DNA from: a virus
Length of the DNA: 35,602 nucleotides
Strand: one strand, 5' to 3'
IMG/VR virus record: IMGVR_UViG_3300037042_000622
Coordinates: 1-35,602 of that record
The position numbers and the translations under genes are program-made. Under the pieces are notes generated by a model. It ran no database searches. It saw only the letters and a program-made list of their open reading frames with translations, and was not told the DNA's origin. Positions 1 through 35,602 of this stretch are shown here, in pieces (within the stretch, counting starts at the first letter, position 1; the number at the start of each line of letters is the position of its first letter).

Positions 1-77
1 ACCATTATTGAACGACCAGTTGAATTTGTATAGGTGGTTGATAATGCCCTACTAGCGGTAACATCTGTCCATGACTT

Positions 78-1313
78 TCAAACACCGAATGCGTATGATG
101 CTGTTGTTGCTGTTGCCGCGTTGCCTGAACAAGCCGCAGATGTTCCGCCATTGGCTGGTGCTGAACCTGCTGTGTTTGAATATCCAGCATATCCAACATA
201 ACAAGGGGCATGATAGCCATCATTATAATATCCACGCAAAGACCAATATCCACTTACATCCGCACTCCAAGTTGTTTGGATATTATAAGGGTCATTACTA
301 TCATTACGATATAAACGATAAGCCCCTGGTCTTGCGGCACTTGTCCACATCCCTGTTTGACCTGTAATGCCTGATGCGGCAACGGATGATGCACTTGCCG
401 CGTTACCATCACATATATCTGACCTATATGCTGTGTTTACTAAAACAGCAGTTGCATCTGTTCTTCCAACAGCCCAACCACCTATATGTAAATAAGCCCC
501 ATAAGCATTTTCAATTTGTTGGTCTGTGCCATTTATGCTACTAATTCTAGCAGTTCCACCATTTACATTAGTTGCTGTTGTAGCAGTTGCCGCGTTGCCT
601 GAACAAGCCGCAGATGTGCCAGCACTTGTAATAAACCCAGCACCGTTGGTTAGTTGGTTTGTGTTGGTTACATTGGTTGCGCCAGCCGCTATGCCATCAA
701 GTTTGCTTGCATAAGTGTTAGTCATATACCCATTGACAGATGCCGTTGCAGCAGCCATGCTTATTGCAGGAGTTGCCCCACCACTTGATACTACTGGAGC
801 TGTACCTGTTACAGATGTAACTGTACCAACACTTGCTGTGCCACCTAAACTAACAGATGAGCCATTGATTGTAATGCTTGAATTTACAAGACCTGCGTTA
901 GGCAATCCTGTGCAATTAGTCAATGTACCAGACGCAGGAGTACCTAATACTGGAGTAGTTAGTGTAGGGCTGGTTAAGGTCTTATTTGTGAGTGTTTGTA
1001 CACCATCTATAGTCACGGCTTTATCGGCAGGATAGGTAACAAATACATTCTTTACACCGGCAGAAAAATTAATTAATGCGGTAGTTCCTAAACTATTTGA
1101 TAGAACTGTGTCCCTAGATAGAGTGCCGGCAGCAACCGTACCAATACCAACTTCCCAGTTAACACCATCCGTAATTGAGTAGTATGTTGTATTGGTATTT
1201 CCAATAGCAGATGAAAATGTCTGAAAGCCAGATACAGCACCGCTAAGTGTTAACGTGCCAGTACCTGTGGTAGACGTTGTTTCCTGTACCCTATCCTTGA
1301 CTATAAGAGCCAT
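78..1313 (-). CDS. Tail fibre, allele A (receptor-binding, stop-truncated)
   Basis: Leftward protein of 411 residues. The N-terminal third has a short motif (MALIVKDRVQETTST) typical of phage fibre attachment ends, followed by low-complexity Gly/Ser/Thr/Ala sequence. Near residues 228-245 and at the C-terminus it carries the GTSAACSGNAATATT motif found between modules of many tail fibres. The central module (about 245-390) differs completely from the right-end allele. The TGA at 78-80 replaces a Gly codon of that allele, and the frame stays open beyond it to the window edge with the same sequence (KSWTDVTASRALSTT). The stop is either a genuine truncation or an assembly or strain artefact. It starts 9 bases after the 128-residue tail protein gene, so it belongs to the late operon. 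Confidence 0.8.
   Translation of the reverse strand: MALIVKDRVQETTSTTGTGTLTLSGAVSGFQTFSSAIGNTNTTYYSITDGVNWEVGIGTVAAGTLSRDTVLSNSLGTTALINFSAGVKNVFVTYPADKAVTIDGVQTLTNKTLTSPTLTTPVLGTPASGTLTNCTGLPNAGLVNSSITINGSSVSLGGTASVGTVTSVTGTAPVVSSGGATPAISMAAATASVNGYMTNTYASKLDGIAAGATNVTNTNQLTNGAGFITSAGTSAACSGNAATATTATNVNGGTARISSINGTDQQIENAYGAYLHIGGWAVGRTDATAVLVNTAYRSDICDGNAASASSVAASGITGQTGMWTSAARPGAYRLYRNDSNDPYNIQTTWSADVSGYWSLRGYYNDGYHAPCYVGYAGYSNTAGSAPANGGTSAACSGNAATATTASYAFGV
112..143 (-). repeat. Fibre module-boundary repeat, copy 1
   Basis: A 32-base sequence encoding CSGNAATAT-type residues. It is identical base for base to 586-617 in the same gene and nearly identical to copies in the right-end allele. 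It marks the C-terminal edge of the variable module. Confidence 0.8.
586..617 (-). repeat. Fibre module-boundary repeat, copy 2
   Basis: Exact second copy of the 32-base sequence at 112-143, at the N-terminal edge of the variable module of allele A. The pair could support homologous exchange or deletion of the module between them. Confidence 0.8.
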
Positions 1314-1321
1314 GCTTTATC

Positions 1322-1708
1322 CTAAGATAATGTTACTGAAAGGCTGCCGGAAGCAATTTTGAATATATCGCCATTATCAATTGTTTTAGATGCGTCTAGT
1401 GGAGTATGGTACAAAAGATTGCCACTTGTTGATGCATCCATTAGACCAATCCAGCCTACTGTACCCCATGAAGCCGTAGCTTGTGGGAATGTGCAGTCTG
1501 CGTTAGATAGGCTGACACCATTAGAAGGTGCAGCAAATGTTACGGATGTACGTGCGTAAGAGCCACCAGATACTTCTGTACCTGTATTAGCGTCTGTCGG
1601 ATCACTTGTGTAAAGAGCCACGTAGATTGTTGTTGGTGCTGTGTAAGCTGTAGCTCGTAGCGTTACATTAATTAAAGCATTTTCTAGGTAATTGGACATT
1701 TCTGACAT
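1322..1708 (-). CDS. Conserved phage tail-associated protein (Gp80-like, tentative)
   Basis: 128 residues. After an N-terminal helix it has a beta-rich body with PTTIYVALYTSDPTD, a Gly-Thr-Glu-Val-Ser-Gly turn, YARTSVTFA, and a WGTVGWIGLMDA segment. Similar small beta proteins in many phages sit beside fibre or tail-tip genes, and the pattern recalls the Gp80-like family, though I could not run a profile search. It lies between the adaptor and the fibre genes with gaps of about 10 bases, so it is co-transcribed with them. A small tail or fibre-attachment protein is the likeliest role. Confidence 0.6.
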   Translation of the reverse strand: MSEMSNYLENALINVTLRATAYTAPTTIYVALYTSDPTDANTGTEVSGGSYARTSVTFAAPSNGVSLSNADCTFPQATASWGTVGWIGLMDASTSGNLLYHTPLDASKTIDNGDIFKIASGSLSVTLS

Positions 1709-10437: not shown

Positions 10438-10472
10438 AAACGAGATAATTTAAACATATCAGGAGATTTATC

Positions 10473-10544
10473 ATGTGGACATCACCAGCAGCTACAGAAA
10501 TGCGTTTTGGCTTTGAAGTTACAATGTACGTAATGAACAAGTAA
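10473..10544 (+). CDS. pqqA: PqqA-like PQQ precursor peptide
   Basis: A 23-residue peptide, MWTSPAATEMRFGFEV then TMYVMNK. Length and layout match short PqqA peptides such as that of Klebsiella: N-terminal Met-Trp, Pro5, an EVTxY core and a Lys/Arg end. Glu15 and Tyr19 are present at the family positions. In bacteria these two side chains are joined by the radical-SAM enzyme PqqE with the chaperone PqqD, then processed to PQQ, the cofactor of methanol and other dehydrogenases. A strong AGGAG (10461-10465) lies 7 bases before the ATG. The gene is alone on the plus strand between leftward modules. No pqqB-F gene is in the window, so any function relies on host enzymes. It is probably an auxiliary metabolic gene taken from a host. 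Confidence 0.88.
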   Translation: MWTSPAATEMRFGFEVTMYVMNK

Positions 10545-15116: not shown

Positions 15117-15228
15117 AATTATTTTCACTTTATGTATAAATAATGCTTGTATTTATGTTTTATGTATGCCATTATTACACATCGCAGCAAATTATGCGAT
15201 TAACTTAATAGCAACGGTGGAGATAAAA
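15117..15228. promoter_or_regulatory. Divergent early control region with repeated AT-rich boxes
   Basis: This gap separates the leftward and rightward early modules. TTTATGTAT occurs at 15129-15137 and 15159-15167, 30 bases apart (about three helical turns). The first copy is part of a 12-base palindrome TTTAT-GT-ATAAA (15129-15140), which could be an operator. A leftward promoter with TTGCTG as -35 and ATACAT as -10 is conceivable, but no strong match was found on either strand. Confidence 0.4.
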
Positions 15229-15414
15229 ATGACTAGAATAGATGATGGCTTTACAACATATAACGTATTACGCAATAACGGTGTTTATGGTTCTGAAACA
15301 AGTTTAGTTCATACATTTAAAACTAGATTTGATGCTGATTGTTATGCTGAAAATTTAAATAAAAATATTAGCGATGATGAACCAGTATATTTTTTTGTTG
15401 AAGTAGTATATTAA
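15229..15414 (+). CDS. Unknown small protein, first rightward gene
   Basis: 61 residues from ATG 15229, with GGAG about 7 bases upstream. It is Asp/Asn/Tyr-rich, with a beta-like N-terminal half (DDGFTTYNVLRNNGVYG), a helix (TRFDADCYAENLNK) and a final strand (PVYFFVEVVY). No family recognised. It shares an almost identical ribosome-site leader with the next gene. Confidence 0.6.
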   Translation: MTRIDDGFTTYNVLRNNGVYGSETSLVHTFKTRFDADCYAENLNKNISDDEPVYFFVEVVY

Positions 15415-15439
15415 TTAAATAGAAACGGTGGAGATAAAA

Positions 15440-15670
15440 ATGTACACAATCAAATCTACAAAATTCCCAAAACAAAAATGGGACATCTTAGAAAACGGTA
15501 AAGTTGTCAACTCTACCTACAATTCCTACAAACTAGCTTGCGCCTTACTTAACCAATACCAAATGGTTGACAAGGTATACACACGAGTTGCTGAAATAGA
15601 AGCATCAGTTTGCTTGTTTAAAGCTAAATGTGACCGTGAAACAAGGGAGGCTCGCAATGCTACCAGATAA
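15440..15670 (+). CDS. Unknown small protein, second rightward gene
   Basis: 76 residues from ATG 15440. A strand-rich N-terminus (YTIKSTKFPKQKWDILENG) is followed by a helix (SYKLACALLNQYQ) and a charged C-terminal helix ending in Arg. Its leader matches that of the preceding gene, and the overall strand-strand-helix plan is similar, so the two may derive from an old duplication although the residues have diverged. Confidence 0.6.
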   Translation: MYTIKSTKFPKQKWDILENGKVVNSTYNSYKLACALLNQYQMVDKVYTRVAEIEASVCLFKAKCDRETREARNATR

Positions 15671-15906: not shown

Positions 15907-16026
15907 ATGGAAGACAATCGCCAAGATACAGATTTTATTGATCTAGAAGAATACTTAGAGTACCTACTAGATTGTGCAAATAAAGAATTAAACGAATTAC
16001 GAGGAGATAATAATGTCAGTATTTAA
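15907..16026 (+). CDS. 39-residue acidic protein
   Basis: Rich in Asp/Glu (DNRQDTDFIDLEEYLEYLL), with a C-terminal charged helix. It starts one base after the preceding stop and overlaps the annealing-protein gene by 14 bases, whose ribosome site lies inside it. No family recognised; the tight packing supports expression. Confidence 0.5.
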   Translation: MEDNRQDTDFIDLEEYLEYLLDCANKELNELRGDNNVSI

Positions 16027-16564
16027 AGCACTAAGCGGTATAGATGTAAACCAGCACGTAGAGAAGAAAGGTCAATTCACTTACTTGTCTTGGGCATGGG
16101 CTGTGGCAGAGTTACGCAAGGCATCACCAACGGCTACGTGGGAAGTTATTAAGACAGATGGATTACCGTTCTGTAAGACAGAATGTGGTTACTTTGTTGA
16201 GGTTGCTGTTACGGTAGATGGCATTACATTAAGTCAGATTCATCCGGTTCTGGATAACAACAACAAGACAATTCCAGCGCCAAATGCTTTTCAAATCAAC
16301 ACATCAATACAGCGATGCCTAGTTAAAGCAATTGCGCTACATGGTCTAGGCTTGTATATCTATGCTGGTGAAGATTTGCCTTCTGTAGAACTTGAGTCAG
16401 TAGATGTGTATGTTGATATGATACGCAAAACTAAAACAATGGCAGAGTTGCAAAAAGTGTTTATAGATGTTCGTAATCAAGTTAAAGTTAACTCAGCATA
16501 TACAGCTCCTGTAACAAAAGCAAAAGATGATATGAAAGCATTATTTGAAGGGATGGCAACATGA
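16013..16564 (+). CDS. Single-strand annealing protein, Sak3/DUF1071 type
   Basis: 183 residues. The motif FTYLSWAWAVAELRKASP near the start, with GYFVEVAVTVDGIT and FQINTSIQRCLVKAIALHGLG, is diagnostic of DUF1071 (Sak3), a phage family related to Erf/Rad52-like annealing proteins. The C-terminal 45 residues are a charged tail. It should anneal ssDNA produced by the YqaJ exonuclease two genes downstream. GAGGAG lies about 8 bases before the ATG. Confidence 0.88.
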   Translation: MSVFKALSGIDVNQHVEKKGQFTYLSWAWAVAELRKASPTATWEVIKTDGLPFCKTECGYFVEVAVTVDGITLSQIHPVLDNNNKTIPAPNAFQINTSIQRCLVKAIALHGLGLYIYAGEDLPSVELESVDVYVDMIRKTKTMAELQKVFIDVRNQVKVNSAYTAPVTKAKDDMKALFEGMAT

Positions 16565-16833: not shown

Positions 16834-16967
16834 TTATCAAATCACTATACGGATTAAAGCCACCTAGCCAAAAAGAGATGTCAGACCGTGATGCTAAGGT
16901 TGCCAAGGCTTTAAAAGATTTAGGTCACAAGTGGCTACTTTCAAAACCAATGCCAAGGATTAGATAA
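16830..16967 (+). CDS. 45-residue basic protein
   Basis: MIIKSLYGLKPPSQKEM followed by a Lys-rich helix (DAKVAKALKDLGHKWLLS). It starts at ATGA over the preceding stop and ends at TAATG shared with the exonuclease start. Possibly a small DNA-binding or accessory protein. Confidence 0.5.
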   Translation: MIIKSLYGLKPPSQKEMSDRDAKVAKALKDLGHKWLLSKPMPRIR

Positions 16968-17572
16968 TGCAAGGTACAGCAGAATGGTTTGAATCACGGA
17001 TTGGAAAGGTAACAGCAAGTCGTGTTGCTGATGTATTGGCTACTATTAAGACAGGTGAGTCTGCCAGCCGTAAGAACTACCGCATGGAGCTAGTATGTCA
17101 GCGTCTAACAGGTCAACGTGATGAAGGCTTTACTAACTCACACATGGAGCGAGGTATTGAACTAGAGCCACTAGCCAGAGCAGCGTACGAGTTTAAGCAA
17201 GGTGTCACGGTAACCGAGGTAGGCTTTATTGACCACCCAAGCATTGAAATGTCTGGTGCTAGTCCAGATGGTCTTGTCGGTCTTGATGGTCTAGTAGAGA
17301 TTAAATGCCCTACGGCAGCCAACCACGTAGATACACTATTGTCTGGCAAAGCTCCTAGCAAGTACATACCGCAGATGCAATGGCAGATGGCTTGTACCGG
17401 TGCTAAGTGGTGTGACTTTGTTAGCTACTGTCCAACAGTAGGTGATAACCTAGCATTGTTTGTAGTACGTGTTGAAAGAGATTCAGAGTACATAGATGAA
17501 GTGCAAAATGCAGTAAAATTGTTTTTAACAGAAGTGTCAGATTTAACAACTAAACTAAAGGAACTAAAATGA
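16967..17572 (+). CDS. YqaJ-type (lambda exonuclease family) recombinase
   Basis: 201 residues. Motifs: QGTAEWFESRIGKVTASR, MERGIELEPLAR (Glu67), SGASPDGLVG (Asp101), LVEIKCP (Glu111-Ile-Lys113) and PQMQWQMACTG (Gln140 region). These are the acidic and lysine residues of the lambda-type 5'-3' exonuclease. It degrades one strand of duplex DNA to expose ssDNA for the annealing protein. It overlaps the SSB gene by 4 bases, showing a coupled exonuclease-SSB-annealing unit. Confidence 0.92.
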   Translation: MQGTAEWFESRIGKVTASRVADVLATIKTGESASRKNYRMELVCQRLTGQRDEGFTNSHMERGIELEPLARAAYEFKQGVTVTEVGFIDHPSIEMSGASPDGLVGLDGLVEIKCPTAANHVDTLLSGKAPSKYIPQMQWQMACTGAKWCDFVSYCPTVGDNLALFVVRVERDSEYIDEVQNAVKLFLTEVSDLTTKLKELK

Positions 17573-17949
17573 ATTTATTAGCAGCAACAGGTCGCTTAGG
17601 ACAAGACGCAAAATTAAGTTACACAGCAAACCAAGATGCAATATGCAACTTTTCGCTATCGCTGACCGCAGGATACGGAGAGAAAGCTACAACTACGTGG
17701 TTGAATTGCAACCTATGGGGGAAGCGTGCCGAAATATTAGCGCCAATGCTTCTAAAAGGTACGCAAATAGGCATTACAGGCGAGATTAGCACTCGGTTAT
17801 ATAAAGCCAAGGACGGCACAGAGAAATCAAGCCTAGAGTGCCGTGTTGGTGATGTAACTTTACTGGGTGGCAAATCAGAAGCCGGTGCAGCTAAACCTGC
17901 TAAATCTGTTGACCCAATGGATGCTGTAGAATCAGATATACCATTCTAG
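17569..17949 (+). CDS. ssb: Single-stranded DNA-binding protein
   Basis: 126 residues. OB fold: MNLLAATGRLGQDAKLSY, DAICNFSLSLTAGYGEKAT, WLNCNLWGKRAEIL, LKGTQIGITGEISTRLY. A Gly/Ala/Lys linker leads to the acidic tip DIPF, as in bacterial SSB, which recruits partner proteins. Coupled to the exonuclease by ATGA. A hairpin terminator candidate follows the stop. Confidence 0.93.
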   Translation: MNLLAATGRLGQDAKLSYTANQDAICNFSLSLTAGYGEKATTTWLNCNLWGKRAEILAPMLLKGTQIGITGEISTRLYKAKDGTEKSSLECRVGDVTLLGGKSEAGAAKPAKSVDPMDAVESDIPF

Positions 17950-31196: not shown

Positions 31197-32626
31197 TATC
31201 TAGTACCCTGTGGAGATATATCAATATCAATACCAATTGCATTAGACCAGCGATCACCACTAGGAATTACTGATAAACGATGGTACTTTCCGCTACTACG
31301 TAATGATACACGATTCTCACTACTTGCTGCTGTATATGTGCCTAACTGTGGTACTGCACTTAAAAGCATCCTAGATGCTATAGCAACGCTCCCAGAGCCA
31401 TTATCTACTACTGGTCGTGCCAATGTAACTACAGAAGTTGATTCACTTCCTATGTCACCAGTTGTTATTGTTGCGGTAGAGTTAGCCCCAGTAAAAGTAA
31501 CTACCTTAGTATCTCTTGCCCCAGCAAATAAAAACTTGCCACCAGCCCACAATGCATCATCTAAAGATGTAGTCAACGTGTCCATGTTGCCGTATAGGTC
31601 TAAGCCTTCTAGCGTCATACCGGCAGAAGCTGATGATGCCACTACATCTACGTCAGTAGTGCAAGATGACCATTTTTTAACTTGCCAGTTATAGATTAGC
31701 AATGTGTTTTGTGCAAAGTTATCAATAAACTCCCATACGACAATCTTACGAATAGGGTCAATTGTTGATGACATTAAGTTTAATTTAGAAAGGTTTACAT
31801 TTGAATAAAACCACGCATCTACTTTTTGTGTACCAATTGCAGTTACTGTAGAGCCATCGCATGAATAAAATCCATCTGCACCTAAGAAGTAGGTTATGCC
31901 ACCGTATTGAACTACTGAATTACCTTCAGCACACCCAATACCACGACTGATTGTATCAAATTGGAAAAATAATGGTGAGCCAATGTAAGACATACGAACA
32001 ATGGCACGGTCTAGGAATATTAAACCAACCTCACCACCACTTAGACCAGTAATGTTGCCACCATCTGCAATTATTTGAAAATCAGATTGACTTGCGCCAC
32101 CTGCTGTCCAGTTTGACTCATCGTTGATGTTAGACCATTGCACCTTATTTGAATTGCTACCACTATCTAAGTTGGCAGCTACAACAAAATCACGTACTAC
32201 TGTCACATACTTTGCTACTGGTGCGCTTGCATTCAAATCAGCAAATAATGAACTTGATCCTAATGTAAAACTTTGCAATATATTTACGTTATTAGCAGCA
32301 ATAATAGTATCGCCAAACTGAGTAAAATTCCATTTAACAACGGCTGAATAATTACCAGTCTTTGACACGTTATCCATGCTCAAATCTGCGCCATCTAACT
32401 TAAATAACTTAGTAGCACCACCAGCAAATATGTTTGTTGTAGCGCTAAATTTACCAGCAAACACATTGTTAAGGTTTTCACTAGCAGCAGCAGAGTAATC
32501 TACAGCTAATGGGAATGGGTTATAACCTAATGCAGTTGGCACTACGTTTTGTGCAACAGACAAATTCTCAGCTACTCCGGCTAAGTCTGGAGTCCATTCT
32601 GTAAATTCTATGCGTTGCGTAGCCAT
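31196..32626 (-). CDS. Tail/head stabilisation protein (P22 gp10-like)
   Basis: 476 residues from ATG 32626, which overlaps the preceding stop (TAATG). The family start is seen (QRIEFTEWTPDLAGVAENLSVAQNV), then beta-propeller-like repeats (NNVFAGKFSATTNIFAGG, DFVVAANLD, VQWSNINDESNW, GITYFLGADGFYSCDG, KIVVWEF). P22 gp10 closes the neck under the adaptor ring and anchors the tail needle. The length, 476, is close to gp10 (472). Confidence 0.75.
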   Translation of the reverse strand: MATQRIEFTEWTPDLAGVAENLSVAQNVVPTALGYNPFPLAVDYSAAASENLNNVFAGKFSATTNIFAGGATKLFKLDGADLSMDNVSKTGNYSAVVKWNFTQFGDTIIAANNVNILQSFTLGSSSLFADLNASAPVAKYVTVVRDFVVAANLDSGSNSNKVQWSNINDESNWTAGGASQSDFQIIADGGNITGLSGGEVGLIFLDRAIVRMSYIGSPLFFQFDTISRGIGCAEGNSVVQYGGITYFLGADGFYSCDGSTVTAIGTQKVDAWFYSNVNLSKLNLMSSTIDPIRKIVVWEFIDNFAQNTLLIYNWQVKKWSSCTTDVDVVASSASAGMTLEGLDLYGNMDTLTTSLDDALWAGGKFLFAGARDTKVVTFTGANSTATITTGDIGSESTSVVTLARPVVDNGSGSVAIASRMLLSAVPQLGTYTAASSENRVSLRSSGKYHRLSVIPSGDRWSNAIGIDIDISPQGTR

Positions 32627-33375
32627 TAAGCAGTCCGTTGCCACATATAAACTACAACATACGGTTGTAAGTTAGCGTTTGTAGCACTTACACCAGTTGT
32701 ACTATTGGCTACTGTAACACCTGTTGTTGTAGTATTTGTTTTACCACTATTAGTTGAGTTTGGCGGGTTGCCATAACCAGCTAAATTTCTAGCTGCTGCT
32801 CCAGAACTAACAGTACCATAAATAGATCCTTGATAAATATCGTTACCAATATCATGGAAGTGACCTGCATCGGTTACGGTTGCAGTATGGGTATGACTTA
32901 CTACAACTGCATCAGCACTACCACCTGTAGCACCGGCAGTAAATCCAGTCCCAACACCTATTAACACTCTTCCTTCACCAAATGCTACCCATGTACCAAA
33001 GCCAAATAAAGTATTTGGATTAGTAGAAACTGTGGCAGTAAATATGCAACCAACTGGATATATTACCTGTAATGCAGCAGCTATTGCTGTAGTTGTAAAG
33101 GCGGTAGTTGCTACTTGAGTAGTATTAGTTCCGCTAGATGCAGTTGGTGCAGTCGCTACTCCAGTCATTGTTGTAGTACCAGTAACAGATAAGTTACCAC
33201 CTACTGTAAAGTTATCCGCATCTGTACCAGTTTGCTGGTCTTTAACTTGAGCCATCAATTCACGTATAGCATTATTAATACCAGATGGCGCACAACCCTC
33301 GGCAATATCTATGCCACCAATGTCGGTGTTATTTGCTGCCGTAGCACTCCACTCACTTATCTTATTCTTAGCCAT
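32626..33375 (-). CDS. Tail fibre / collar-type protein
   Basis: 249 residues. The N-terminus NKISEWSATAANNTDIGGIDI, with AEGCAPSGINNAIRELMAQVKD, is a common fibre-attachment domain. The C-terminal half is a tail-collar-type domain (VIYPVGCIFTATVSTNPNTL, GFGTWVAFGEGRVLIGVG, HTHTATV, NLQPYVVVYMWQRT). His-x-His pairs may bind metal ions at the tip. It probably attaches to the stabilisation or neck complex and touches the host surface. Coupled to the next gene by TAATG. Confidence 0.8.
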   Translation of the reverse strand: MAKNKISEWSATAANNTDIGGIDIAEGCAPSGINNAIRELMAQVKDQQTGTDADNFTVGGNLSVTGTTTMTGVATAPTASSGTNTTQVATTAFTTTAIAAALQVIYPVGCIFTATVSTNPNTLFGFGTWVAFGEGRVLIGVGTGFTAGATGGSADAVVVSHTHTATVTDAGHFHDIGNDIYQGSIYGTVSSGAAARNLAGYGNPPNSTNSGKTNTTTTGVTVANSTTGVSATNANLQPYVVVYMWQRTA

Positions 33376-33378
33376 AAT

Positions 33379-34155
33379 TTATCCCTTTAAAAGCCATGTA
33401 TTACTATTTGCTGGTATTTCTGTCCATGTATTTGATATTACTGACGTATCTGTCCAAGTATTTGTACTTACTGATACAGGTGTCCAAGTATTACCAGTTA
33501 CAATTGTATCTGTCCAAACATTTTCTGTTACTGGTACTGGATTCCAGTTATCACCTAATTTTGTACCATTTGCGACTACATTTGCTGTTGCTTGTACTTG
33601 ACCATACGCATTCCATATTGCATTTGCGTAAGCGTTTACTAAAGCATAGCCATTAATATGTGCGTCTGCTTTATACTCAACACCACCAAGTGCAGTAACG
33701 ACTGCCGCCCCATTAATTGAACCAGATGAAGTCCTAGTTCTTATTGCATTACCTGTAACAGTTGCGATACCATTAATAGCACCGCTTGATGTTCTTATCC
33801 GGATTGAGTCGGATGTTACAGTTGCATTGCCTAATATTATAGCATTTGCGCTGTAAATTACGCTAGAACCGCTAGAAACGCTCGCTAACGCATTAATACT
33901 TCCACTTGATGTCCTAGTCCTAATCGCATCCGAATTAACTGTTGCAAGCCCATTAATTTGAGCCGAATTTAAACGTATTGCATAAGCATTGGCTGTTACG
34001 TCAGCATTTGCTACTATTGTAGCATTTGCACTACTAATTTGATTGGCATTTGCAGTAACTATTGCATTTGCATCAATACTTGCAGATCCTAATATTAATG
34101 CAGCATTTGCTAGCGCACTAAATGGAGCTTGAGAAAATGCTAAAATTCCAAACAT
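33379..34155 (-). CDS. Repeat-built tail protein (beta-solenoid-like)
   Basis: 258 residues. About 60-180 contain three copies of a unit like (S/A)IR(T/I)RTSSG(S/A)IN(A/G), and the whole region is Ala/Asn/Ile-rich with alternating strands, as in beta-solenoids. The last 60 residues are five repeats of a ten-residue unit with a conserved Trp (NVWTDTIVTG, NTWTPVSVST, NTWTDTSVIS, NTWTEIPANS). The DNA shows matching 30-base repeats at about 33396-33545. Likely a spike or fibre stalk. Confidence 0.65.
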   Translation of the reverse strand: MFGILAFSQAPFSALANAALILGSASIDANAIVTANANQISSANATIVANADVTANAYAIRLNSAQINGLATVNSDAIRTRTSSGSINALASVSSGSSVIYSANAIILGNATVTSDSIRIRTSSGAINGIATVTGNAIRTRTSSGSINGAAVVTALGGVEYKADAHINGYALVNAYANAIWNAYGQVQATANVVANGTKLGDNWNPVPVTENVWTDTIVTGNTWTPVSVSTNTWTDTSVISNTWTEIPANSNTWLLKG

Positions 34156-34511
34156 TAACTATTCCATTGTGATTCTGGTACTGCTGGGAAAGTAATTTCT
34201 CCTGCTACTGGGTTTACTGCATACTGACGAACTGCTAAACGATATGCATCAAACTCATTACCATTAATTAAATGGGGAGTATTTGCAGTATTTCTTACAT
34301 CTGGCTGGTTAACCCAGTCTGTAGCCTGTAATAGGCTTGTCGCAGTTGCTTTATTGTCTTCTGCCGTTGGCGGTGATGGTGGTGGTGGATATGAGCCAGT
34401 TATATTTACATAACCATCATCAATGGCTTTTTGCATATACGGCAATTGTGTTTCATCTGTTTCATCAAAACCAAACACTTCGCCAGTAGATTCATTTTTA
34501 TAATATTTCAT
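34155..34511 (-). CDS. Tail fibre assembly chaperone-like protein
   Basis: 118 residues. MKYYKNESTGEVFGFDETDE with a Pro-rich linker (SYPPPPSPPTAEDNK) and a C-terminal helical part (LQATDWVNQPDVR, FDAYRLAVRQYAVNP, FPAVPESQW) are typical of Tfa/DUF4376-like chaperones that fold the neighbouring fibre. It lies directly after the fibre gene on the leftward path, as expected. Confidence 0.75.
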   Translation of the reverse strand: MKYYKNESTGEVFGFDETDETQLPYMQKAIDDGYVNITGSYPPPPSPPTAEDNKATATSLLQATDWVNQPDVRNTANTPHLINGNEFDAYRLAVRQYAVNPVAGEITFPAVPESQWNS

Positions 34512-34522
34512 AATTTAACCTT

Positions 34523-35602
34523 TTAGCGTAATTCTGCCCATTGGTTTAAAGACATAGTGCCAGTCGGTGCAAAAGCATATGTTGCACCAGAAGGAATAAT
34601 AATACTACTACCTGAGTACACGTTTAAACCCCATCCAGCAATACGACCATAAACTGTTCCGTTTATGCTTACGGTAACATTGAACAGACCATTTGATGCA
34701 CCACCACGAATTGTTAGGAAAACCATTATTGAACGACCAGTTGAATTTGTATAGGTGGTTGATAATGCCCTACTAGCGGTAACATCTGTCCATGACTGTC
34801 CAACACCGATTGCGTTTGATGCTGTTGTTGCTGTTGCTGCGTTGCCTGAACAAGCAGACGATGTTCCTGAAGTTGTAGCGTAATTTACACTAAAGTTTGA
34901 TGGGTTATACACATACATATTTGAACCATCACTACCACCCCATAACCAAGGTGGCTGACCACTTTGCCCTGACCAGTTAAAATTTAAATCTACACCACCA
35001 ACACGATAAGGATATGCACGACCTGCTGTTGATGCGTAAGTAGCCGTTGCTGCATTACCTGTGCATGATGCTGAAGAACCTGAAGTTAAATCACTAACCC
35101 TAGCAGAATCAACCCTTAATCCATAAGTGCTTGAACCATTCCAACCCATTAGACTAGGATATGATGCTGACCAAGCAACAGCCGCATTTGTGTTATTTAC
35201 AGCACTTCCTGTTGGCGATGTTGATGCTGAAGCGTCAAATATAATATGATTATTGCCGTAGTTTTTCCAGCCTAACATATTTGCAACAGCAGATGTTCTT
35301 AATGAAGCCCAGTTTGATTGGTCACCACTTAATGTTGTTGCCGTTGCCGCATTGCCTGAACAAGCCGCAGATGTGCCTGAACTTGTAATAAACCCAGCAC
35401 CGTTGGTTAGCTGGTTTGTGTTAGTTACATTGGTTGCACCAGCCGCTATGCCATCAAGTTTGCTTGCATAAGTGCTAGTCATATACCCATTGACAGATGC
35501 CGTTGCAGCAGCCATGCTTATTGCAGGAGTTGCCCCACCACTTGATACTACTGGAGCTGTACCTGTTACAGATGTAACTGTACCAACACTTGCTGTGCCA
35601 CC
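34523..35602 (-). CDS. Tail fibre, allele B (5' part cut by the window edge)
   Basis: The frame is open to the edge; 359 residues are visible and the start is missing. The N-terminal visible part (GGTASVGTVTSVTG) matches allele A. The middle (about 95-260) is unrelated to allele A and has its own GNAATAT-type boundaries. The C-terminus ends SGATYAFAPTGTMSLNQWAEL. Gly replaces the stop of allele A at the position equal to 78-80. With the first part of allele A the full fibre would be about 500 residues. The chaperone gene follows 11 bases after the stop, so this copy is the intact-end version. Confidence 0.8.
   Translation of the reverse strand, partial: GGTASVGTVTSVTGTAPVVSSGGATPAISMAAATASVNGYMTSTYASKLDGIAAGATNVTNTNQLTNGAGFITSSGTSAACSGNAATATTLSGDQSNWASLRTSAVANMLGWKNYGNNHIIFDASASTSPTGSAVNNTNAAVAWSASYPSLMGWNGSSTYGLRVDSARVSDLTSGSSASCTGNAATATYASTAGRAYPYRVGGVDLNFNWSGQSGQPPWLWGGSDGSNMYVYNPSNFSVNYATTSGTSSACSGNAATATTASNAIGVGQSWTDVTASRALSTTYTNSTGRSIMVFLTIRGGASNGLFNVTVSINGTVYGRIAGWGLNVYSGSSIIIPSGATYAFAPTGTMSLNQWAELR
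34833..34864 (-). repeat. Fibre module-boundary repeat, copy 3
   Basis: Equivalent of 112-143 in allele B with a few differences, all in the same frame (CSGNAATAT). Confidence 0.7.
35343..35374 (-). repeat. Fibre module-boundary repeat, copy 4
   Basis: Differs from 586-617 by one base. It marks the N-terminal edge of the allele B variable module. Confidence 0.75.

Follow-up and report, generated by a model that had tools for sequence, protein, structure and literature searches.

Why should a phage contig begin and end inside what look like two versions of the same fibre gene? The window analysed here, the whole of a 35,602-bp IMG/VR virus record, comes from a freshwater relative of the Methylophilales phage Venkman, and the original prediction held that its two ends carry the N-terminal and C-terminal parts of one fibre gene around unrelated middles. 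Self-comparison of the window bears this out with two direct repeats: positions 1-146 match 34722-34867 (146 bp, 95% identity), and positions 576-845 match 35333-35602 (270 bp, 97% identity). Within these repeats, a 76-bp prefix (1-76 and 34722-34797) and a 127-bp suffix (719-845 and 35476-35602) are exact, and such match lengths are far beyond chance. The middles, 147-575 and 34868-35332 (430-465 bp), are unrelated and can be aligned only with many gaps, so the end overlap as a whole is not a terminal direct repeat. As had also been proposed, neither copy has both flanks: A holds the 5' part with its start codon at 1313, and B holds the 3' part with its stop codon at 34523 and a reading frame that is still open at the contig end. 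In both A and B, the reading frame agrees with that of the shared ends. In other words, the alignment of the ends reveals two fibre variants, here called alleles A and B, within one record (Table 1). Pfam searches with both fibres and sequence searches of the PDB gave no match.

Table 1. Features of the fibre locus and of the recombination genes in the window
Feature	Position	Strand	Basis or remark
Fibre allele A	78..1313	-	start codon at 1313; shared module and A-specific middle; ORF ends at TGA 78-80
N-terminal anchor of allele A (MALIVKDRVQE...)	about 1005-1313	-	part of allele A
Fibre allele B	34523..35602	-	5' part cut by contig end; shared module, B-specific middle, C-terminal tip
Shared 3'-side flank in A	1..146	-	95% to 34722-34867, first 76 bp exact
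Shared 3'-side flank in B	34722..34867	-	direct repeat with the A flank
Shared 5'-side flank in A	576..845	-	97% to 35333-35602; 719-845 exact (127 bp)
Shared 5'-side flank in B	35333..35602	-	35476-35602 is the exact 127-bp overlap where the contig stops
A-specific middle modules	147..575	-	alignment of both copies
B-specific middle modules	34868..35332	-	alignment of both copies
48-bp linker A1	576..623	-	encodes ..TSAACSGNAATAT..
48-bp linker A3	102..149	-	43/48 identical to A1
48-bp linker B1	35333..35380	-	linker comparison
48-bp linker B3	34823..34870	-	linker comparison
In-frame TGA of allele A	78..80	-	within four-transversion cluster (77, 80, 89, 95)
C-terminal C1q-like jelly-roll tip domain of B (predicted)	34523..34822	-	structure prediction and structure comparison
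gp80-type fibre I / head-tail gene	1322..1708	-	PF23140, PDB 8jou; conserved, upstream of fibre
Possible tail fibre assembly gene	34155..34511	-	downstream of fibre; weak match
Sak single-strand annealing protein	16013..16564	+	PF06378; predicted role at linkers
YqaJ exonuclease	16967..17572	+	PF09588
Single-strand binding protein (SSB)	17569..17949	+	PF00436

We consider it highly probable that the window is one circularly assembling phage genome with a single fibre gene, of which two alleles were present in the sample. The DNA would be circularly permuted or concatemeric, and the alleles would have the N-terminal side and the 3' end in common and differ in their middle modules. A de Bruijn assembler working at k = 127 would have left the shared backbone through allele B, re-entered it through allele A, and halted at precisely the 127-mer that brings B back onto A. 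In the simplest reading, the contig is a circle opened at a polymorphic site, where it begins and ends, and both alleles would then co-occur in one population.

The gene order of related phages can be compared with this proposal. The TerL protein of the window is 62% identical to that of Venkman and about 45% identical to those of HTVC010P-type pelagiphages, and the related terminase together with the common structural gene order places the phage among the Venkman/HTVC010P-like podophages. Venkman (EXVC282S) has the same order of portal, scaffold, capsid, tail genes, and fibre, and its fibre anchor is 62% identical to that of the window, although in Venkman one short gene encodes the anchor and another gene the fibre; far closer to the window than Venkman are many relatives in IMG/VR, whose TerL proteins are 85-95% identical to that of the window. 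Mapped on 21 of the longer relatives, the genes form one common circle, with the contig ends at differing places. In these relatives, the gp80 homologue is followed by the fibre locus and then by a homologue of 33379-34155, and the two ends of the window are therefore neighbours.

The lengths of the end overlaps point to the assembler. A k series of 33-127 is a documented setting of the JGI type for metaSPAdes (PMC11584781), and the exact suffix of the window equals the last k-mer length of that recipe; the overlap lengths suggest that the window record was made in this way. Among the relatives, the contig ends of G009 and G018 are perfect 127-bp overlaps, and those of G004 and G011 are 126-bp overlaps adjoining a single SNP. 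In a further relative, G003 (L106 1-298 against the end of L107), the ends overlap in the scaffold gene over 298 bp with three SNPs; the last 127 bp and the first 66 bp of this overlap are exact. The recurrence of these k = 127 signatures agrees with the entry of the assembler from two sides, which had been part of the original prediction, and assemblers are known to stop at variable islands (PMC7468147). It should be mentioned that the overlap in the scaffold gene of G003 is a useful control for circular contigs that end at polymorphic sites. An enrichment of contig ends at the fibre locus was considered and dropped as evidence: five of the 15 contigs that reach the locus have an end in it (0.20 per kb), which does not exceed the rate elsewhere, up to 0.31 per kb.

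Several observations count against the two-allele reading. The left overlap is 76 bp and not 127 bp, and the left end is for this reason taken as a tip that was trimmed or ran into a dead end. Neither middle, used as an exact probe, matched another contig of IMG/VR, from which close records may be absent; the terminal 127-mer belongs to a module widespread in the fibres of other phages, and in allele A a stop codon precedes the shared tip. The common modules are also the starting point for a chimeric join, in which one end would come from another co-occurring phage and would have been joined through modules found in many fibres. Both the 5'-side shared module and the middles do occur in the fibres of other phages, many of which are without the backbone genes of the window. 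On the contrary, each end of the window runs on its own side into backbone genes of this phage group, the 48-bp linkers are shorter than k = 127, and both end overlaps indicate the same locus, so that we regard a chimera as quite improbable.

A tandem pair, with two successive fibre genes in one genome and an assembly broken in the repeats between them, seems to us about equally improbable. The end repeats would likewise break an assembly, and more than one fibre-type gene is present at the locus in several relatives, where smaller and different fibre-type genes stand in a row in place of one long gene (L108-L109 in G004, L116 in G018, L130 in G007, L131 in G008, and L135 in G017). These additional genes are different genes, however, and not copies that carry the same anchor: the N-terminal anchor domain gave one match per locus in all 60 related loci, some of which overlap each other, and the window has a single copy as well. 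A single long fibre gene occupies the locus in six relatives (G002, G003, G005, G009, G011, and G016) and in the closest relative, L233; the anchor MALIVKDRVQE..., or a close variant of it, forms the start of this gene, and one or two small genes lie between the gene and the homologue of 33379-34155. Moreover, G003 has the same overlap pattern at its scaffold gene, a place without a gene pair. On the sequences of these loci, a pair with two anchors is not a habit of this phage group. The synteny of the relatives and the single anchor thus uphold the proposal of a circular or permuted genome with one fibre gene, entered from each side through a different allele.

If the window holds two alleles of one gene, which part of the fibre has been exchanged? 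The last 99 residues of B are modelled as a confident seven-stranded beta domain (mean pLDDT 87). Compared with the PDB, this domain resembles C1q-type domains at low significance, with no match below an E value of 0.001, and it also resembles the ends of many phage tail-fibre models. From these models, the C1q/TNF-like domain at the 3' end is likely to be the fibre tip, and the 3' part that encodes it is common to both alleles as far as A is seen. The original prediction spoke of a swapped receptor-binding module. The swap of an internal middle stands, but its identity as the receptor-binding part is doubtful; the likely tip is shared, and the swapped middle should not yet be given that name. 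The swap may have an effect on adsorption.

The frame of allele A is kept, but a single TGA precedes the tip, and the reading frame runs on through the C-terminal part in B only. All four transversions at the A tip are nonsynonymous, and two of them alter residues that are invariant in 11 homologues; compared with the other differences between the alleles, the cluster is suggestive only (P 0.24 for transversions and 0.08 for nonsynonymous changes). The TGA may reflect a real truncation of allele A, although an error at the contig tip is more likely. That allele A is a real circulating variant without the C1q-like tip, so that tipped and tipless fibres form a maintained polymorphism in one population, is in our view unlikely.

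The borders of the exchange are marked by short repeats. Copies of a 48-bp linker stand where the sequence common to A and B gives way on the 5' side and where it resumes on the 3' side. In other phages, fibre matches start or end near the linkers more often than expected from position (P about 1e-4 for A and for B, in a test that treats match ends as independent, which is only partly true), and in L220 a linker forms the direct junction between a B module and an A module. Most of the phages that share fibre modules have none of the backbone genes of the window near the fibre, and the module pool therefore crosses phage groups. Most likely, the alleles arose by recombination or annealing between the short, imperfect linker repeats that separate the fibre modules, and the Sak/YqaJ/SSB set of the phage would be a plausible agent of the swapping. 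Rad52-like recombinases are known to join short, diverged sequences, side tail fibre regions included (De Paepe et al. 2014, PMC3945230). The window encodes both an annealing protein of this kind, Sak (PF06378), and an exonuclease (PF09588), and the joining of short, diverged sequences by annealing proteins in lambdoid phages, in side tail fibre regions too, is a close likeness to what we propose; the recombination was shown for Red-beta, RecT, and Erf in temperate phages, whereas the part of Sak here is putative.

Programmed variation, by a diversity-generating retroelement or an invertible segment, could also generate fibre alleles. Such systems act on the fibre genes of other phages. For the window, however, this origin is extremely improbable: neither a reverse transcriptase, expected near the variable gene of a retroelement, nor a site-specific recombinase was found among the larger proteins scanned, self-comparison detected no inverted repeats around the locus, and entire modules differ rather than scattered adenine positions. 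We have rejected both retroelement and inversion, as neither the genes, among the proteins scanned, nor the inverted repeats were found.

Variable, mosaic fibres are already well known as biology. Host-recognition genes, tail fibres included, vary among near-identical co-occurring phages in metaviromic islands (Mizuno et al. 2014, PMC3909814; Bellas et al. 2020, PMC7468147), and the window likewise has a variable host-recognition gene region between conserved backbone, although here it was the overlap between the ends of a single contig, and not read recruitment, that disclosed the variation. In the domain shuffling of receptor-binding proteins, shared ends are kept while non-homologous parts are exchanged across distant phages (Smug et al. 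2023, PMC10684548). The fibre locus is alike in its shared ends and exchanged non-homologous parts, whereas its exchange is internal with a recurring linker at the borders, and the examples in that paper are mostly C-terminal. It is most likely that the fibre variation is ordinary shuffling of host-recognition genes, of a known kind, caught in an unusual way through assembly. When the contig of a circular phage overlaps only in the outer parts of its ends, together with one exact overlap of k-mer length, this argues against a terminal repeat or a tandem gene and in favour of a polymorphic site. In turn, the linker repeats offer a concrete and testable route for the exchange of modules among freshwater phages.

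A second fibre-type gene of the window (32626-33375) keeps its N-terminus (MAKNKISEWSATAANNTDIGG...) among relatives, while its C-terminal domains differ (L122 in G005, L126 in G015, and L233). It ends in Gp10_C (PF21939) in the window and in the same C1q-like tip as fibre B in G005 and G015, and both fibre-type genes seem to take their modules from a common pool. Elsewhere in the window, the DNA of 10461-10544, where there is no annotated feature, is 87-91% identical to that of the Methylophilaceae phages P19250A and MEP301 and may be a conserved non-coding element. A 33-bp direct repeat (91%; 15199-15231 and 15410-15442), ending in ATG before two small genes, looks like a duplicated ribosome-binding leader.
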